Of a stretch of DNA of 64,000 bases, positions 2,911 to 6,306 are shown in pieces. Made by a program: the position numbers and the translations under genes. The notes under the pieces were generated by a model that was given only the letters and a program-made list of their open reading frames with translations, ran no database searches and was not told the DNA's origin. Origin of the DNA: an uncultured Lachnospiraceae bacterium (GTDB lineage Bacteria; Bacillota; Clostridia; Lachnospirales; Lachnospiraceae); contig CATLGV010000022.1 of the NCBI GenBank assembly GCA_949948735.1, positions 1-64,000 on the forward strand, written 5' to 3'. Each line of letters opens with the position of its first letter. Position 1 is the stretch's first letter.

Positions 2911-3198
2911 TTATGCGGCGGTGAAGCCCTGGGCTGCAAGTGCCTCTGCCAATTCTTCGTTCTTCTCGCCGGTGAGGGTTCCGTTCTTGTCAATGGTGTA
3001 ATTGCTTATCGTAAAGCCATAGGTCGGGGCTTTCATGTATACTGGAGCCGTGCCGATATAATTCCCTACGGCGGTCGCTAATTTTTTTCTGCGTGGCCCG
3101 GTTACATTGTAGTGGATTTCCATGCTCCCAGTTTTCTCGCCCTCGGATTCTTCCACCGCCTGCTCGGTGGTTTCCTCGCCTTCCGGCTCTGCTTCCAC
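2911..3198 (-). CDS. Small phage-associated protein of the 'virulence-related protein' type
   Basis: The core MEIHYNVTGPRRKKLATAVG, followed by IGTAPVYMKAPTYGFTISNY and an IDKNGTL motif, resembles short proteins from clostridial prophages usually annotated 'virulence-related protein', whose function is unknown. The maximal frame starts at a GTG (3198) without a visible ribosome binding site and adds an acidic stretch; the conserved part begins at Met 26 (3123). The gene points against the tail genes that follow, and the two meet near 3200, which looks like a deletion junction. The frame is intact, but expression is doubtful. Confidence 0.5.
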   Translation of the reverse strand: MEAEPEGEETTEQAVEESEGEKTGSMEIHYNVTGPRRKKLATAVGNYIGTAPVYMKAPTYGFTISNYTIDKNGTLTGEKNEELAEALAAQGFTAA

Positions 3199-3204
3199 TC
3201 GGCT

Positions 3205-3417
3205 TCCAGTCCGGGCATTGAGGGGAAGACCAATGAGGAGAGCCGGGAGGTGCAGACGGAGACGCTTACGATTAAGGCAACGCCGCTGCCAGGCGGCATG
3301 GTGAAGGCGAAGACGGGGGATACCACGGATGCGGCAGTATATAATGGCTGGTATGCGGCGGTGTATATGCCTGCGGCTGTGCCGGAGAATGGGAATGGGG
3401 AGGAGGAAACGGTATGA
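3205..3417 (+). pseudogene. Phage major tail tube protein, C-terminal remnant
   Basis: The frame reads EVQTETLTIKATPLPGGMVK, then AKTGDTTDAAVYNGWYAAVY, ending at 3417. This matches the C-terminus of the major tail (tube) proteins of siphovirus-like prophages in Firmicutes (phi13-like). The N-terminal two thirds are missing and the frame runs into the opposite-strand gene at about 3200. The stop overlaps the start of the tail assembly chaperone, which is the normal phage gene order. Confidence 0.7.
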
Positions 3418-3790
3418 GCATGACGAAGATGATTGAGATTGACGGGCGGGAGGTGGCGTTCCGCGCCTCTGCCGCCATTCCCCGGATTTACCGGCTGAAA
3501 TTCCAGAGGGATATCTATAAGGATCTGAGCGCGTTGGAGAAGGCGGTGGGGAAGGAGGACGAGGGAAACTCGAACCTGGATTTGTTCTCGCTGGAAATGT
3601 TTGAGAATATCGCCTATGTGATGGCGAAGCACGCGGACGGGTCTATCCCGGATACGCCGAGGAATGGCTGGACGGGTTCGGGACGTTCTCCATTTACTAG
3701 GTGCTGCCGAAGCTGATCGAGCTGTGGGGGCTGAATGTGAGGACGGATGCGGAGGCTAAAAAAAACTTCGCCCAACAGACCGGCCAATGA
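3414..3790 (+). pseudogene. Phage tail assembly chaperone (gpG-like), broken by a frameshift and a nonsense codon
   Basis: Begins MSMTKMIEIDGREVAFRASA and continues through FQRDIYKDLSALEKAVG to AKHADGSIPD, typical of Firmicutes phage tail chaperones. Near 3654 the reading must shift by one base to continue as YAEEWLDGFGTFSIY. A TAG (about 3702) then interrupts before VLPKLIELWGLN; the usual residue there is Gln, so a CAG to TAG change is likely. The segment ends with A8C (3758-3766) and a stop at 3788-3790. Two independent lesions mean the tail genes are no longer functional. Confidence 0.75.
3760..3766 (+). promoter_or_regulatory. Slippery heptamer A AAA AAC for -1 ribosomal frameshifting (relic)
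   Basis: Tail assembly chaperones of long-tailed phages are made as G and G-T proteins through a programmed -1 frameshift. In the chaperone frame the bases read A AAA AAC at 3760-3766, the canonical X XXY YYZ pattern. Slipping back one base here enters the frame of the following GT segment without meeting a stop. The site survives although the upstream G gene is broken. Confidence 0.65.
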
Positions 3791-3957
3791 CAACGCCGCT
3801 GTTTCTGCTTCGGTGCGTGCAGCTGGGGCTTTCTATCCGGGATTTAGATTTGCTTACTATCGGGATGGTGAATGATATGTACGTGGAGAGCCGGAATGAT
3901 GGGTGTCCGGAGGCGTATCTGGAATTGGCTACGCAGGCGGATTTCGACAATTTTTGA
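3787..3957 (+). CDS. Phage tail chaperone second segment (GT-type), 56 residues
   Basis: Encodes MTTPLFLLRCVQLGLSIRDL, then DLLTIGMVNDMYVESRND and ends DFDNF. This is the typical T extension of Firmicutes phage tail assembly chaperones, which bridges the tail tube and the tape measure during assembly. It starts within the last codons of the G gene and is also reachable by -1 frameshifting at 3760-3766. The frame is intact but belongs to a non-functional tail module, so it is probably a relic. Confidence 0.65.
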   Translation: MTTPLFLLRCVQLGLSIRDLDLLTIGMVNDMYVESRNDGCPEAYLELATQADFDNF

Positions 3958-4074
3958 TTATGTTCGGATTGTGGGGGCATCCTTTTTCTGGTATACTTAG
4001 CGGTGGGAGAAGGCTGCTTTTTCAGAAGTGGATGTAATAATAAACCGAATACGGATTAGGGTAGGGGGTGGATT

Positions 4075-4632
4075 GTGGGAAAGACCTTTAAACATATGGA
4101 TTTACAGCAGAGATTGAAATTAAAGGAAATGATTGATTCAGGATGCAGTATTCTTGAAGTGGCAAATGCTTTAGAGGTTCACCGTTCCGCTGTGTACCGG
4201 GAAATTGAGAGGGGCGGCATGAAGGGCGGGTATGCCCCGTACTATGCACAGTCAATGTATGAGGGAAGGCTAAAGAAAAAGGGGCGGCCAGAATGTAAAC
4301 TTTCTAATAAGGATTTGGCAGAATATATTTCTGGTTTGATTTTGGAAGAACATTTAAGCCCTGAGAAGATAGTTGATCTGCTGGTGGAAGATGATAGGAG
4401 ATTTCCCGATGTACCGCAGTCTCCGAATACAATTTATAATGCGATTGACAAGGGCTTAATACCGAATGTGACCAGAGAGTCGTTGCTTTCTAAATCATGT
4501 ACGGTATTTAGCGGAGGGCAGATTTGTATCCCTAAATGGGTATTGGATAAATTGGAGATAAGAGACGGGGATACATTGCAGCTGGAAGTTACAAAGAAAA
4601 ATGAAATCATTTATCGAAAAACAGAGGAATAA
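4075..4632 (+). CDS. IS30-like helix-turn-helix protein fused to a SpoVT/AbrB domain (185 aa)
   Basis: Residues 1-60 (LQQRLKLKEMIDSGCSILEV, then HRSAVYREIERG) match the N-terminal HTH of IS30-family transposases. Residues 80-130 (EEHLSPEKIVDLL and SPNTIYNAIDKGLI) match the next IS30 helical region, but no DDE catalytic domain follows. Instead residues 143-182 (VFSGGQICIPKWVLDKLEI, then GDTLQLEV) form a SpoVT/AbrB swapped-hairpin DNA-binding domain, common in transition-state regulators and MazE-type antitoxins. It is probably a regulator or antitoxin for the next genes. Start is GTG with an AGGGGGTG ribosome binding site. AT-rich, with an intact frame inside prophage debris. Confidence 0.7.
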   Translation: MGKTFKHMDLQQRLKLKEMIDSGCSILEVANALEVHRSAVYREIERGGMKGGYAPYYAQSMYEGRLKKKGRPECKLSNKDLAEYISGLILEEHLSPEKIVDLLVEDDRRFPDVPQSPNTIYNAIDKGLIPNVTRESLLSKSCTVFSGGQICIPKWVLDKLEIRDGDTLQLEVTKKNEIIYRKTEE

Positions 4633-4681
4633 TTTTTCAAGTTCATTATTGAAATTTGTATATGAAAAGGGGAGTAGTGCT

Positions 4682-5293
4682 ATGGCAATAACACAGATTG
4701 CATTTGAAATACCACCAGAAATACAAGCGGGAATTGATGCAGGTGCATTATTACGGTTCGGCGGTGTTATTCGAGATAGGGCAGGACATATGGTGAAACA
4801 TCTGGAAGAAGTTTCTATACCAGAGGCGGATAATAGTGCCGGGGAAAGTACGATTGTTCAATTTGCAAAAAAGAATAAATATTTTATCATTGGAACTGCG
4901 ATTGCAGCAATAACAGCAGGGGTTATTTATGTTGTGGTTAAAAATAAGAAAAACAAAGAAGAACAGATTCCGAAGTGTGTGGCTGATTTTAATGAATCAT
5001 TTGCTGAATATGCAGATTTGATTAAAATGGGAGCTGTAAGTGAGGAAAAAATTGATAAAGTTATGACAGCGTTAGAAGAAATAAAAAGGAATCAAGAGAA
5101 AGAAACAATTACCATAACATTTTCTGCCGAAAATATTATTCTTTTACTTGGCATGGTAAGAGACTATACGATGAAATTTGCAGAAGCAAATTCATTTGAA
5201 ATACAGGAAGAAGATATAAAAGAGCATGATGAAATAGATGAATTACAACATTATTTGAAAATACAGAAACAGATATTTGAAAAATGTGCATGA
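4682..5293 (+). CDS. Single-pass membrane protein of unknown function, partner of the HTH-AbrB gene
   Basis: 203 residues. The N-terminus (MAITQIAFEIPPEIQAGIDA, then LLRFGGVIRD and GHMVKHLEEV) looks like a small folded domain. One membrane helix follows at about residues 60-85 (FIIGTAIAAITAGVIYVVV) with a Lys-rich cytoplasmic flank (KNKKNKEE), then a charged helical C-terminus with coiled-coil character. The in-frame upstream ATG at 4601 lies inside the previous gene and has no ribosome binding site; the ATG at 4682 has GGGGAG at the right distance. I have an impression that similar pairs occur near AbrB-type genes in other Clostridia, but I cannot name the family. Confidence 0.6.
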   Translation: MAITQIAFEIPPEIQAGIDAGALLRFGGVIRDRAGHMVKHLEEVSIPEADNSAGESTIVQFAKKNKYFIIGTAIAAITAGVIYVVVKNKKNKEEQIPKCVADFNESFAEYADLIKMGAVSEEKIDKVMTALEEIKRNQEKETITITFSAENIILLLGMVRDYTMKFAEANSFEIQEEDIKEHDEIDELQHYLKIQKQIFEKCA

Positions 5294-5330
5294 AATAAGA
5301 CGTTTTAAACTGAAAAGAAAGTAGGGCACC

Positions 5331-5855
5331 ATGGATAGAAACGTAAATATTATTGTTGGCCTGAATGGTGAGAAGATTGTCCTGATCAACGATATCCGTT
5401 TTAAGGGCAAAAAGCGGGAAGACTGGAAAGAAGTAGAGAGCTATCTCAAAGAGTATGTCGGGGAATTTTACGAGATTGCGGAATCGTCTGAAAAGATATT
5501 CATTTCCAGCAGTTTCCCGGATGAATACGCCGGTTCAGAGAGCAGGCTTGCCTTAAAAGGTGCTGTCGCGAAGGCCAAGGCCAATGCGGCGCAAGGGATA
5601 CCGGAGCTGATTCAGATTGCCACGAATGGGGAGTATTCGGAGAATACGAAAAAGAAGCATGAGAAAGACGCTAAATATGGCTGGTATCGGTATGATGTAC
5701 GGTTTGCCTTGCCAGTATATGATGATAAGAGCGGCGAGGTCTGCCGGTACAATATCTTTTTTGCCCGGATGCTGGTGCGCCATGATGCGGACGATAAGAA
5801 ATATTTTTATGACCTGCTGGCAATAAAAAAAGAAACGAGCAGCCCGCTTGAGTAA
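5331..5855 (+). CDS. Phage/mobile-element protein, possibly a PBECR-type nuclease domain (174 aa)
   Basis: Stand-alone 174-residue protein. The core (GLNGEKIVLINDIRFKGKK, KANAAQGIPELIQIATNGEY, then KYGWYRYDVRFALPVYDD and a C-terminal IKKETSSPLE) resembles the C-terminal domains of phage MuF-type and polymorphic-toxin proteins that I associate with the phage Barnase-EndoU-ColicinE5/D-RelE-like (PBECR) nucleases. The assignment is from memory and the active site is not verified. No signal peptide or membrane segment is seen. GC content is higher than in the two preceding genes, so it may have joined the cassette separately. It could act as a toxin, as a phage morphogenesis accessory, or as neither. 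Confidence 0.45.
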   Translation: MDRNVNIIVGLNGEKIVLINDIRFKGKKREDWKEVESYLKEYVGEFYEIAESSEKIFISSSFPDEYAGSESRLALKGAVAKAKANAAQGIPELIQIATNGEYSENTKKKHEKDAKYGWYRYDVRFALPVYDDKSGEVCRYNIFFARMLVRHDADDKKYFYDLLAIKKETSSPLE

Positions 5856-6069
5856 AAACTGTACGGTGAAAACCCATCTCTTTTACGAATAATTGTATCG
5901 GAAGGATGAGGTTTTGTCAATAGAAAAACAGAAGAATTTCTGTATACAAAAAATTCCATATTGAGATTATTATTGGGCATCGGTAAGCAATGACCGGTGC
6001 TTTCTTTATGCCTGCGGCTCGGATTCGTCCGGGCTTTTTTCATGCTGTTTTTGAGGGGAGGTGGTCTTG

Positions 6070-6306
6070 GTGGCGAACCGGATCAAGGGCATTACGGTGG
6101 AGATTGGCGGCGATACTACCAAACTGCAGACCGCCTTGAAAGGGGTCAATACGGAAATACGTAATACCCAGTCCCAGCTGCGGGATGTGGAGAAGCTGGA
6201 AACTTTGAGGACAGCGGCGGAGCAGGCCAATACTGTCCTCGCCAATGGGGAGATTTCTCAGGAGCAGTACGATGCGCTGCAGCGGGAGATCATCGAGCTC
6301 GAGTAG
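6070..6306 (+). pseudogene. Phage tape measure protein, N-terminal remnant with internal deletion
   Basis: Reads VANRIKGITVEIGGDTTKLQ, then TALKGVNTEIRNTQSQLRDV, the very conserved start of tape measure proteins of Firmicutes siphophages. After DVEKL the text jumps to ETLRTAAEQANTVLANGEIS, skipping roughly 30 residues normally present, and a stop follows at 6304-6306. The normal protein exceeds 700 residues. GTG at 6070 is preceded by GGGGAGGTGG. Downstream to 6510 I see only a short open fragment (6396-6495) I cannot assign. Confidence 0.8.

Follow-up and report, generated by a model that had tools for sequence, protein, structure and literature searches.

The window analysed here is a stretch of 64,000 nucleotides (nt) from an uncultured Lachnospiraceae bacterium (contig CATLGV010000022.1 of assembly GCA_949948735.1, positions 1 to 64,000), and our subject is a prophage remnant near its start in which three genes, orf1 (4075-4632), orf2 (4682-5293) and orf3 (5331-5855), stand on the plus strand between phage genes for a tail assembly chaperone and a tape measure protein. 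A preliminary description of the DNA had claimed three undamaged genes at this place, and indeed all three open reading frames (ORFs) are open and flanked by phage tail genes. Over the last codons and the stop of orf3, on the minus strand, lies an unannotated structured small RNA, which is the most interesting element of the locus.

A cargo slot among phage tail genes

Homology of the window to intact sister phages is confined to 3198-6297, leaving a prophage remnant of about 3.1 kb. Against the sister phage L003, a viral contig, it begins at 3198 with a C-terminal remnant of the major tail protein gene (3198-3417, plus strand; PHROG 88 match of the ORF 3112-3417). Part 1 of the chaperone gene (3414-3716, plus strand; PHROG 709 at residues 3-81) is frame-shifted; its sister phage counterpart has 125 amino acids (aa), and in L003 parts 1 and 2 overlap in different frames. 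The tape measure gene (6061-6306, plus strand; PHROG tape-measure families) has only 81 of its roughly 980 codons left and bears an internal deletion, the protein of the sister phages being 980 aa long. The earlier statement that the phage genes are broken holds for these two genes and fails for chaperone part 2 (3787-3957, plus strand), which is intact and matches PHROG 3033 over positions 1-59 of 59.

The genes between chaperone and tape measure differ from their surroundings in composition, with G+C contents of 41% for orf1, 34% for orf2 and 46% for orf3 where the tail remnants have 56% and 55%, so that an AT bias previously assigned to the first two genes extends to all three and is least in orf3. 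Directly 3′ of the chaperone stop is a promoter-like site on the plus strand (3969-3997; TTGTGG-17-TATACT with a TG ahead of the second hexamer) that none of 200 shuffles equalled, yet which falls under the cut-off of a consensus promoter scan. It is identical in L003, in the second sister phage L110 (isolate Bacterium 1XD42-76) and in L109 (a Hungatella metagenome-assembled genome), and almost identical in L111. A terminator scan of the plus strand found two intrinsic-terminator-like hairpins 5′ of the tape measure gene (5975-6035, namely 5975-6002 and 6016-6035), and L110 has a comparable pair. By sequence match alone, then, the cargo has a promoter-like start and a terminator-like end, and it would qualify as a moron: extra genes at a normally adjacent junction, with their own promoter and terminator and a different base composition.

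A search of viral contigs with chaperone part 1 gave 315 relatives, of which the best 80 served to survey the junction. Thirteen of the 80 were set aside, the tape measure gene being absent from the fetched stretch, and in the remaining 67 contigs, among which near-identical ones were kept and the sister phage L003 recurs as L128, the gap between chaperone part 2 and the tape measure gene is either empty (0-92 nt, 25/67) or filled (298-3024 nt, 42/67). At five other tail junctions of the same contigs, gaps of at least 150 nt occur in 0/71, 0/72, 1/80, 0/78 and 2/48 cases. Four named phages were inspected, and both states are found among them: Terrisporobacter phage TPDSL_ph1 and Lachnospiraceae phage NatCom_43249 carry cargo in the slot, Ruminococcus phage NatCom_38182 and Streptococcus phage Javan422 none. 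In the filled slots 82 ORFs reach 60 aa; they group into 54 families, and a few are probably spurious or fragments of the tape measure gene. Pfam matches among 40 cargo proteins include AbiH, a KAP NTPase, an AbiEii-like AAA ATPase, HNH nucleases, Schlafen/AlbA, Mom, RelB with ParE, PIN and helix-turn-helix (HTH) proteins, many proteins being without a match, and PADLOC, applied to 45, matched 60 families, of which the 25 listed include AbiH, AbiLi and PDC-S49. Among distinct filled slots, 31 of 36 end in terminator-like hairpins ahead of the tape measure gene (2.4 expected), and 18 of 33 begin with a promoter-like site 3′ of the chaperone stop at p≤0.05, against 2 of 167 controls inside tape-measure genes. 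By eye, the hairpin also appears in some empty slots, so the slot terminator may predate its cargo. Taken together, these comparisons mark the junction as a site of interchangeable extra genes in this phage family.

The layout resembles that of coliphage HK97, in which the chaperone genes gp13/14 are followed by the moron gp15, a putative terminator and the tape measure gene. In the passages of PMC10883804 that treat it, gp15 is a superinfection exclusion protein that is predicted to lie in the inner membrane and that blocks DNA injection. The hosts differ, the slot of the window holds several genes, and the likeness is one of gene position and layout. Still, the gp15 position serves as a cargo site elsewhere too, and the chaperone-tape measure junction offers a defined address in a gut phage family at which defence cargo may be harvested and tested outside Enterobacteria. 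We recognised no earlier description of a cargo hotspot between chaperone and tape measure in titles, the beginnings of abstracts and some passages of the literature listed, and one may exist in print.

The contents of the slot are modular. In L003 and L110 the arrangement is intact and reads chaperone, Orf1, Orf3, NYN-domain protein, candidate membrane protein, tape measure; orf2 is absent from both. In L109 orf1 is whole, orf2 has a stop at codon 13, orf3 is cut and the RNA is gone, and in L111 orf1 is intact, a deletion fuses orf2 to orf3 and the RNA is retained, leaving orf1 as the sole whole gene of the three in either genome. Because the sister phages lack Orf2 while L109 and L111 keep remnants of it, the gene order identifies Orf2 as an optional module placed between Orf1 and Orf3. 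The fixed three-gene toxin-antitoxin unit that had been suggested does not agree with these arrangements, nor with 10 of 13 relatives of Orf1 having neither partner in the fetched flanks, and what the comparisons point to is a modular slot instead of a conserved cassette. The argument that the cargo must be selected since it is intact is weak in that form, the cargo of L109 and L111 having decayed, although low ratios of nonsynonymous to synonymous change (dN/dS) do indicate past selection.

The antisense RNA under orf3

Orf3 (5331-5855, plus strand) is an open frame of 174 codons whose relatives are dispersed across the family. They were found in 47 of 200 family genomes, in one of 50,697 phage records and at six viral-contig loci, a distribution that rules out a phage-specific gene; the plasmid collection gave no match to Orf3. 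Its neighbours differ between most loci. Five pairs with unsaturated synonymous sites gave dN/dS values of 0.06, 0.04, 0.05, 0.04 and 0.51 (0.04-0.06 against the sister phages), and between the window and L067 dN is 0.045 with synonymous sites saturated; the comparisons thus indicate that Orf3 is held by strong selection at the protein level.

In all ten pairwise comparisons of orf3 across contexts the main homology ends 71-90 nt after the stop codon. An alignment of 45 orf3 tails accounts for this extension, since it contains a promoter-like site on the minus strand together with a conserved stretch. Read on that strand, the order is a promoter of sigma-70-like type (TTGACA-17-TAnnnT-like), the conserved stretch, and a T-run within the codons of the conserved KKETS motif of Orf3. 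In the window the promoter-like site is TTGACA-17-TACAAT (5892-5920, minus strand; 11/12 matches), and the RNA itself (5826-5885, minus strand) scores 75.7 bits with our covariance model, of which the window is one row and whose rows match by construction. Across the 45 tails the promoter score reaches at least 9/12 in 44 (mean of the best shuffled scores 8.2), with p≤0.05 in 32 and a spacer of 17 in 42. Three helices make up the predicted fold. The outer one closes on the T-run, the inner one is a hairpin around the stop codon and a middle stem lies between them; seven of eight RNAs folded alone did so better than nearly all shuffles.

For the covariation analysis the 45 tails were reduced to 41 RNA segments by dropping two duplicates and two tails outside the segment pattern (one of them L110), and 40 of the 41 were aligned. 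The segment pattern demanded the promoter and the T-run, and these features were tested only on the 45 tails and on 22 solo RNAs. Pairing holds in 91.2% of the cells, and double-sided changes number 42 cells against 11.5 in shuffles (0/500 as high) and at most 20 when the structure was slid along the alignment; RNAalifold, unaided, returned 14 pairs, six of them with double-sided changes. The alignment contains 153 G-U cells and 11 A-C cells, an excess which places the folded RNA on the minus strand.

The covariance model found 106 places in 62 of the 200 family genomes, of which 87 places in 56 genomes reach 42 bits. These 87 comprise 44 with a full-length Orf3, 17 with a truncated Orf3 and 26 without an Orf3 match at E≤0.001, and the RNA is present at all 45 of the full-length Orf3 places in the 200 genomes. 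In 391 genomes of the class, matches outside the family do not exceed 33.5 bits. Orf3 pieces are more often C-terminal only (18) than N-terminal only (4), a count in which the shared RNA eases detection of the C-terminal ones and in which one N-terminal piece lies at a contig end (G184) and two belong to genes that also have a C-terminal piece (G114, G121). Solo RNAs resemble those beneath orf3: the promoter-like score is at least 9 in 21 of 22, with p≤0.05 in 14, and in an alignment fitted to the model (22 loci in 25 rows, of which one is partial and one a reverse-strand match) 29 cells change on both sides against 8.2 in shuffles (0/500). Comparative sequence thus shows the antisense RNA, which is presumably transcribed.

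Rfam 15 gave no match at the RNA of the window and, at the RNA sites of 20 loci with solo or nearly solo copies, only one microRNA match (E=0.41). An exact RNA pattern gave nothing useful in viral contigs, being so strict that it misses even the RNA of the sister phage, and looking for an empty site in one genome of the G149 genus was equally fruitless. No such RNA system in Lachnospiraceae or Clostridia was recognised in the titles, abstract openings and passages of the literature that were covered, which leaves room for one in print. The locus adds a structured small RNA lacking a convincing Rfam match at the sites tested, with strong matches in 56 of 200 sampled genomes of one family and tied to a conserved protein.

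The nature of the Orf3 protein is less clear. It had been put forward as possibly containing a PBECR-like nuclease domain; Pfam includes PBECR models. None of 19 Orf3 proteins matches one at E≤0.1, and membership of Orf3 in that family is rejected. A sub-threshold trend towards LPD3 was seen in five of the 19 (best E 0.0024; residues 29-114 in the window), the window protein scoring 14.2 bits against a curated Pfam cut-off of 27. An AlphaFold model from eight sequences has a mean confidence (pLDDT) of 47 and was not usable; a nuclease fold could not be shown, and searches of solved structures with Orf3, as with Orf2, gave nothing useful. LPD3 and PBECR are described in passages of PMC5512222 as domains of polyvalent proteins; Orf3, by comparison, is a stand-alone gene with a weak LPD3 resemblance under the curated cut-off and no PBECR match. 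The same passages give the BECR fold a helix His and a C-terminal Thr or Ser (PMC5512222), and in Orf3 H110 is nearly invariant and T169 invariant, in a protein whose model reaches pLDDT 47 and with the T169 codon shared with the terminator of the RNA. Where a terminator overlaps conserved residues of a protein, as here, C-terminal motifs should be read with caution, since they can mirror constraints on RNA.

Certain copies of Orf3 have an HTH fused to them or preceding them, as judged by eye. An Xre-like HTH is fused to the N-terminus at L079, L080, L082, L083, L086, L088, L095, L098, L103, L211 and L212, and resolvase-like HTH ORFs of 92-118 aa stand directly upstream of orf3 at L099, L100 and L213 and over a solo RNA at L259. 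Skipping-rope RNA (RF02924) lies near, not over, the new RNA at three of the 20 loci searched with Rfam (L246 1348-1425, L252 276-354, L264 1605-1673).

A model for the slot and for Orf3

We propose, with moderate confidence, that the locus is a moron slot whose contents are a regulator, a membrane protein linked to defence and a toxin candidate under RNA control. The slot in the window would combine three separately acquired modules, namely Orf1, Orf2, and Orf3 with its antisense RNA. Its cargo would be expressed from the silent prophage via the promoter-like start, and the terminator would insulate it from late tail transcription. Orf1 probably regulates the slot promoter, and Orf2 probably acts at the membrane to block incoming phage. 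An antisense RNA of about 60 nt would be made constantly from its own promoter-like site, ending within the codons of Orf3, and would pair with the 3′ end of the orf3 mRNA, leading to cleavage of the duplex as with RatA, SR4 and SR6. Upon loss of the prophage or infection, the RNA or its excess would be lost and Orf3 would act. Such an antisense-silencing mechanism would explain why the RNA is often retained where Orf3 is truncated or gone. In this form the toxin-antitoxin idea, unsupported for a three-gene cassette, survives as Orf3 with its own RNA, for which toxicity and an antitoxin role are predictions; superinfection exclusion or defence, likewise a putative phenotype, is favoured by the position of the slot, its contents and part of the relatives of Orf2. 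More tentatively, and as a possibility we would not press, Orf3 could represent a new family of conflict genes in Lachnospiraceae in which the last codons and stop of a 174-aa protein double as the body and terminator of its antisense antitoxin, the unit spreading via chromosomes and phage slots and the hosts keeping solo or tandem RNAs as immunity.

The proposed pair has the layout of type I systems, an antisense RNA with, as predicted from sequence, its own promoter and terminator over the gene. In the parts consulted, antisense RNAs at the 3′ end of Bacillus subtilis prophage genes are described for txpA/RatA and bsrG/SR4 (PMC6562991) and likewise for yonT/SR6, and convergent overlapping pairs, several of them in prophages, for Clostridioides difficile (PMC6563280). 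The Orf3 pair shares that layout but has a larger protein: the B. subtilis toxins are small peptides, while Orf3 has 174 aa, a conserved RNA fold and many solo RNAs. Precedents for size are SymE/SymR and RalR/RalA, whose toxins are presented in a part of PMC4147584 as larger, non-hydrophobic and nucleic-acid-cutting. SymR, however, covers the start of its mRNA where the RNA of Orf3 covers the 3′ end, and nuclease activity of Orf3 is only putative. With this pair one can test directly whether large toxins silenced by RNA are in use among Firmicutes phages.

Several observations weigh against this model. The type I toxins known so far tend to be small and hydrophobic, a common rule and not a universal one, and Orf3 has 174 aa and no hydrophobic stretch (highest 19-residue hydropathy 0.89). 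The dN/dS of 0.51 stems from a nearly identical HTH-fused pair, L080/L083, with few changes. The antisense promoter lies above p 0.05 in 13 of 45 orf3 tails and 8 of 22 solo RNAs, the RNA of L078 folds alone no better than shuffles (z -1.3), and promoter and terminator together could form a transcription-interference device. Orf2 and Orf3 have decayed in L109 and L111 as any prophage gene would, L109 losing the RNA along with the end of Orf3. Of the slots themselves, 15 of 33 distinct filled ones are without a promoter-like start at p≤0.05, and some cargo looks metabolic (GNAT, YjbR and pyridoxamine-oxidase-like proteins in Pfam). Finally, solo RNAs could reflect a host function independent of Orf3.

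This last point leads to an explanation we consider unlikely though deserving of weight, in which the RNA serves the host as a small RNA on targets of its own and Orf3, no toxin, merely happens to be built over copies of it. The 26 of 87 strong places without an Orf3 match, and the 13 genomes with a strong RNA and no Orf3 match anywhere, are what such a history would leave. It fits poorly with the presence of the RNA at every full-length Orf3 place, with the strong selection on the protein, and with a graded loss, seen in the 17 places with a truncated Orf3 and in C-terminal traces of 16-33 residues at 4 of the 25 other places searched with profiles.

Direct inhibition of the protein by the RNA, as in AbiF, is the main rival mechanism because the fold is conserved and solo and tandem copies exist; like the preceding explanation, we judge it improbable. 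Here the folded RNA would bind and block Orf3 in a type III-like pair, and solo or tandem copies would neutralise it in trans. Its structure and unpaired sequence are conserved more than antisense pairing requires, solo copies are common, and in one genome, G031, a single promoter-like site is followed by three copies in tandem. In the portion of PMC12373285 consulted, the phage-borne AbiF of C. difficile is paired with a conserved structured RNA, RCd22, that has repeated motifs and acts by binding the protein in cis and in trans. That RNA, however, is upstream and co-transcribed and of a different motif (RF03085). Known type III antitoxins are, as far as the same passages and those of PMC4147584 go, same-strand upstream tandem repeats, whereas the RNA of Orf3 is downstream and antisense, with abutting copies only in G031 among the places listed. 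In that genome (L258 1025-1214; G031:C57) the three copies abut, with a T-run only on the last, and resemble an antitoxin array.

That the element is no more than a terminator working in both directions, with a flank that resembles a promoter by chance, is very improbable, for while its outer stem ends are A-/T-rich as is typical of terminators and 13 of 45 promoter-like sites do not exceed shuffles at p≤0.05, the G-U pairs hold on one strand only, the TTGACA-like site with spacer 17 stands at 42 of 45 orf3 tails, 21 of 22 solo copies score at least 9/12 and the inner helices covary.

Orf1, Orf2 and other cargo

Orf1 (4075-4632, plus strand) was recognised by profile matches. An IS30-like transposase PHROG of 344 positions is matched at its positions 2-146 by residues 3-137 (E 4.5e-23), HTH_38 matches with E 5e-8, and an AbrB domain lies at residues 143-182 (E 8.8e-7, slightly above its cut-off); a DDE catalytic domain was unmatched, the IS30 profile being covered at 2-146 of 344 only. 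The preliminary reading as an IS30-type HTH fused to AbrB without a catalytic domain was thus sound, and Orf1 is most simply read as a putative DNA-binding regulator assembled from an AbrB domain and the part of an IS30 transposase that binds DNA. Its dN/dS is 0.25-0.26 against the sister phages (0.25 against L003) and 0.11 against L111, which suggests moderate to strong constraint on the protein. The genome collection holds 13 relatives, in records named Lachnospiraceae, genera of that family, bacterium or Clostridia. Three of them (L109, L110, L111) have Orf3 or a remnant of it and two (L109, L111) have Orf2 or a remnant, and neither gene is in the fetched flanks of the other ten. On this ground a type II toxin-antitoxin system with an AbrB antitoxin finds no support, Orf1 having no stable partner in the comparison with Orf2 and Orf3. 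Full-length Orf1 and Orf2 occur together, among the 200 family genomes, only in that of the window itself; the linkage sought for them is not conserved, and the missing co-occurrence rules out a fixed pair of Orf1 with either Orf2 or Orf3 as a conserved system.

Orf2 (4682-5293, plus strand; an alternative upstream start is possible at 4601) has one stretch above the hydropathy cut-off, with its peak at residues 68-86 (mean 2.4), in agreement with its earlier description as a one-helix membrane protein. Set beside a gp15-type membrane protein, this single hydrophobic stretch leaves a block of DNA injection by Orf2 putative. A single-sequence AlphaFold model (pLDDT 56) was not usable, and viral-contig searches gave nothing useful. 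The gene is rare: with the thresholds applied, surveys of 200, 391 and 398 genomes gave it in 3, 7 and 3, and some matches behind the 7 are weak.

Ten contexts of Orf2 were examined, the window and nine others, excluding four weaker partial matches (G405, G503, G512, G578); a match in G632 is, by coordinates, the plasmid copy again. Four of the ten are beside or near BREX or type I restriction-modification genes and one is beside a dynamin-like GTPase, so that the family is partly defence-associated by its neighbours. At L300 brxL lies one 134-aa ORF upstream of orf2, with pglZ before it; at L295, in phage PV036455, orf2 immediately follows hsdR-hsdM-hsdS on the 3′ side; at L105 a MerR-like regulator adjoins and an HsdM fragment is two genes off; and at L299 an HsdM fragment is upstream with recombinases close by. 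The GTPase, which carries an HTH, is 47 nt upstream at L217. Two copies are on plasmids, L216 with a RelE/ParE pair two genes off and L218 with no defence gene seen; none was seen beside L106 either, and the copy at L301 is broken.

The slots of the sister phages hold further cargo, a NYN-domain protein and a small candidate membrane protein whose hydropathy is slightly under the cut-off used (L003 3815-4758, L110 9306-10249). A Mom-like family, of which one member was scanned (PF25680), occupies 8 of the 42 filled slots (L156, L162, L163, L164, L166, L173, L175, L185), with partners that vary, for example HNH nucleases or an AlbA protein.

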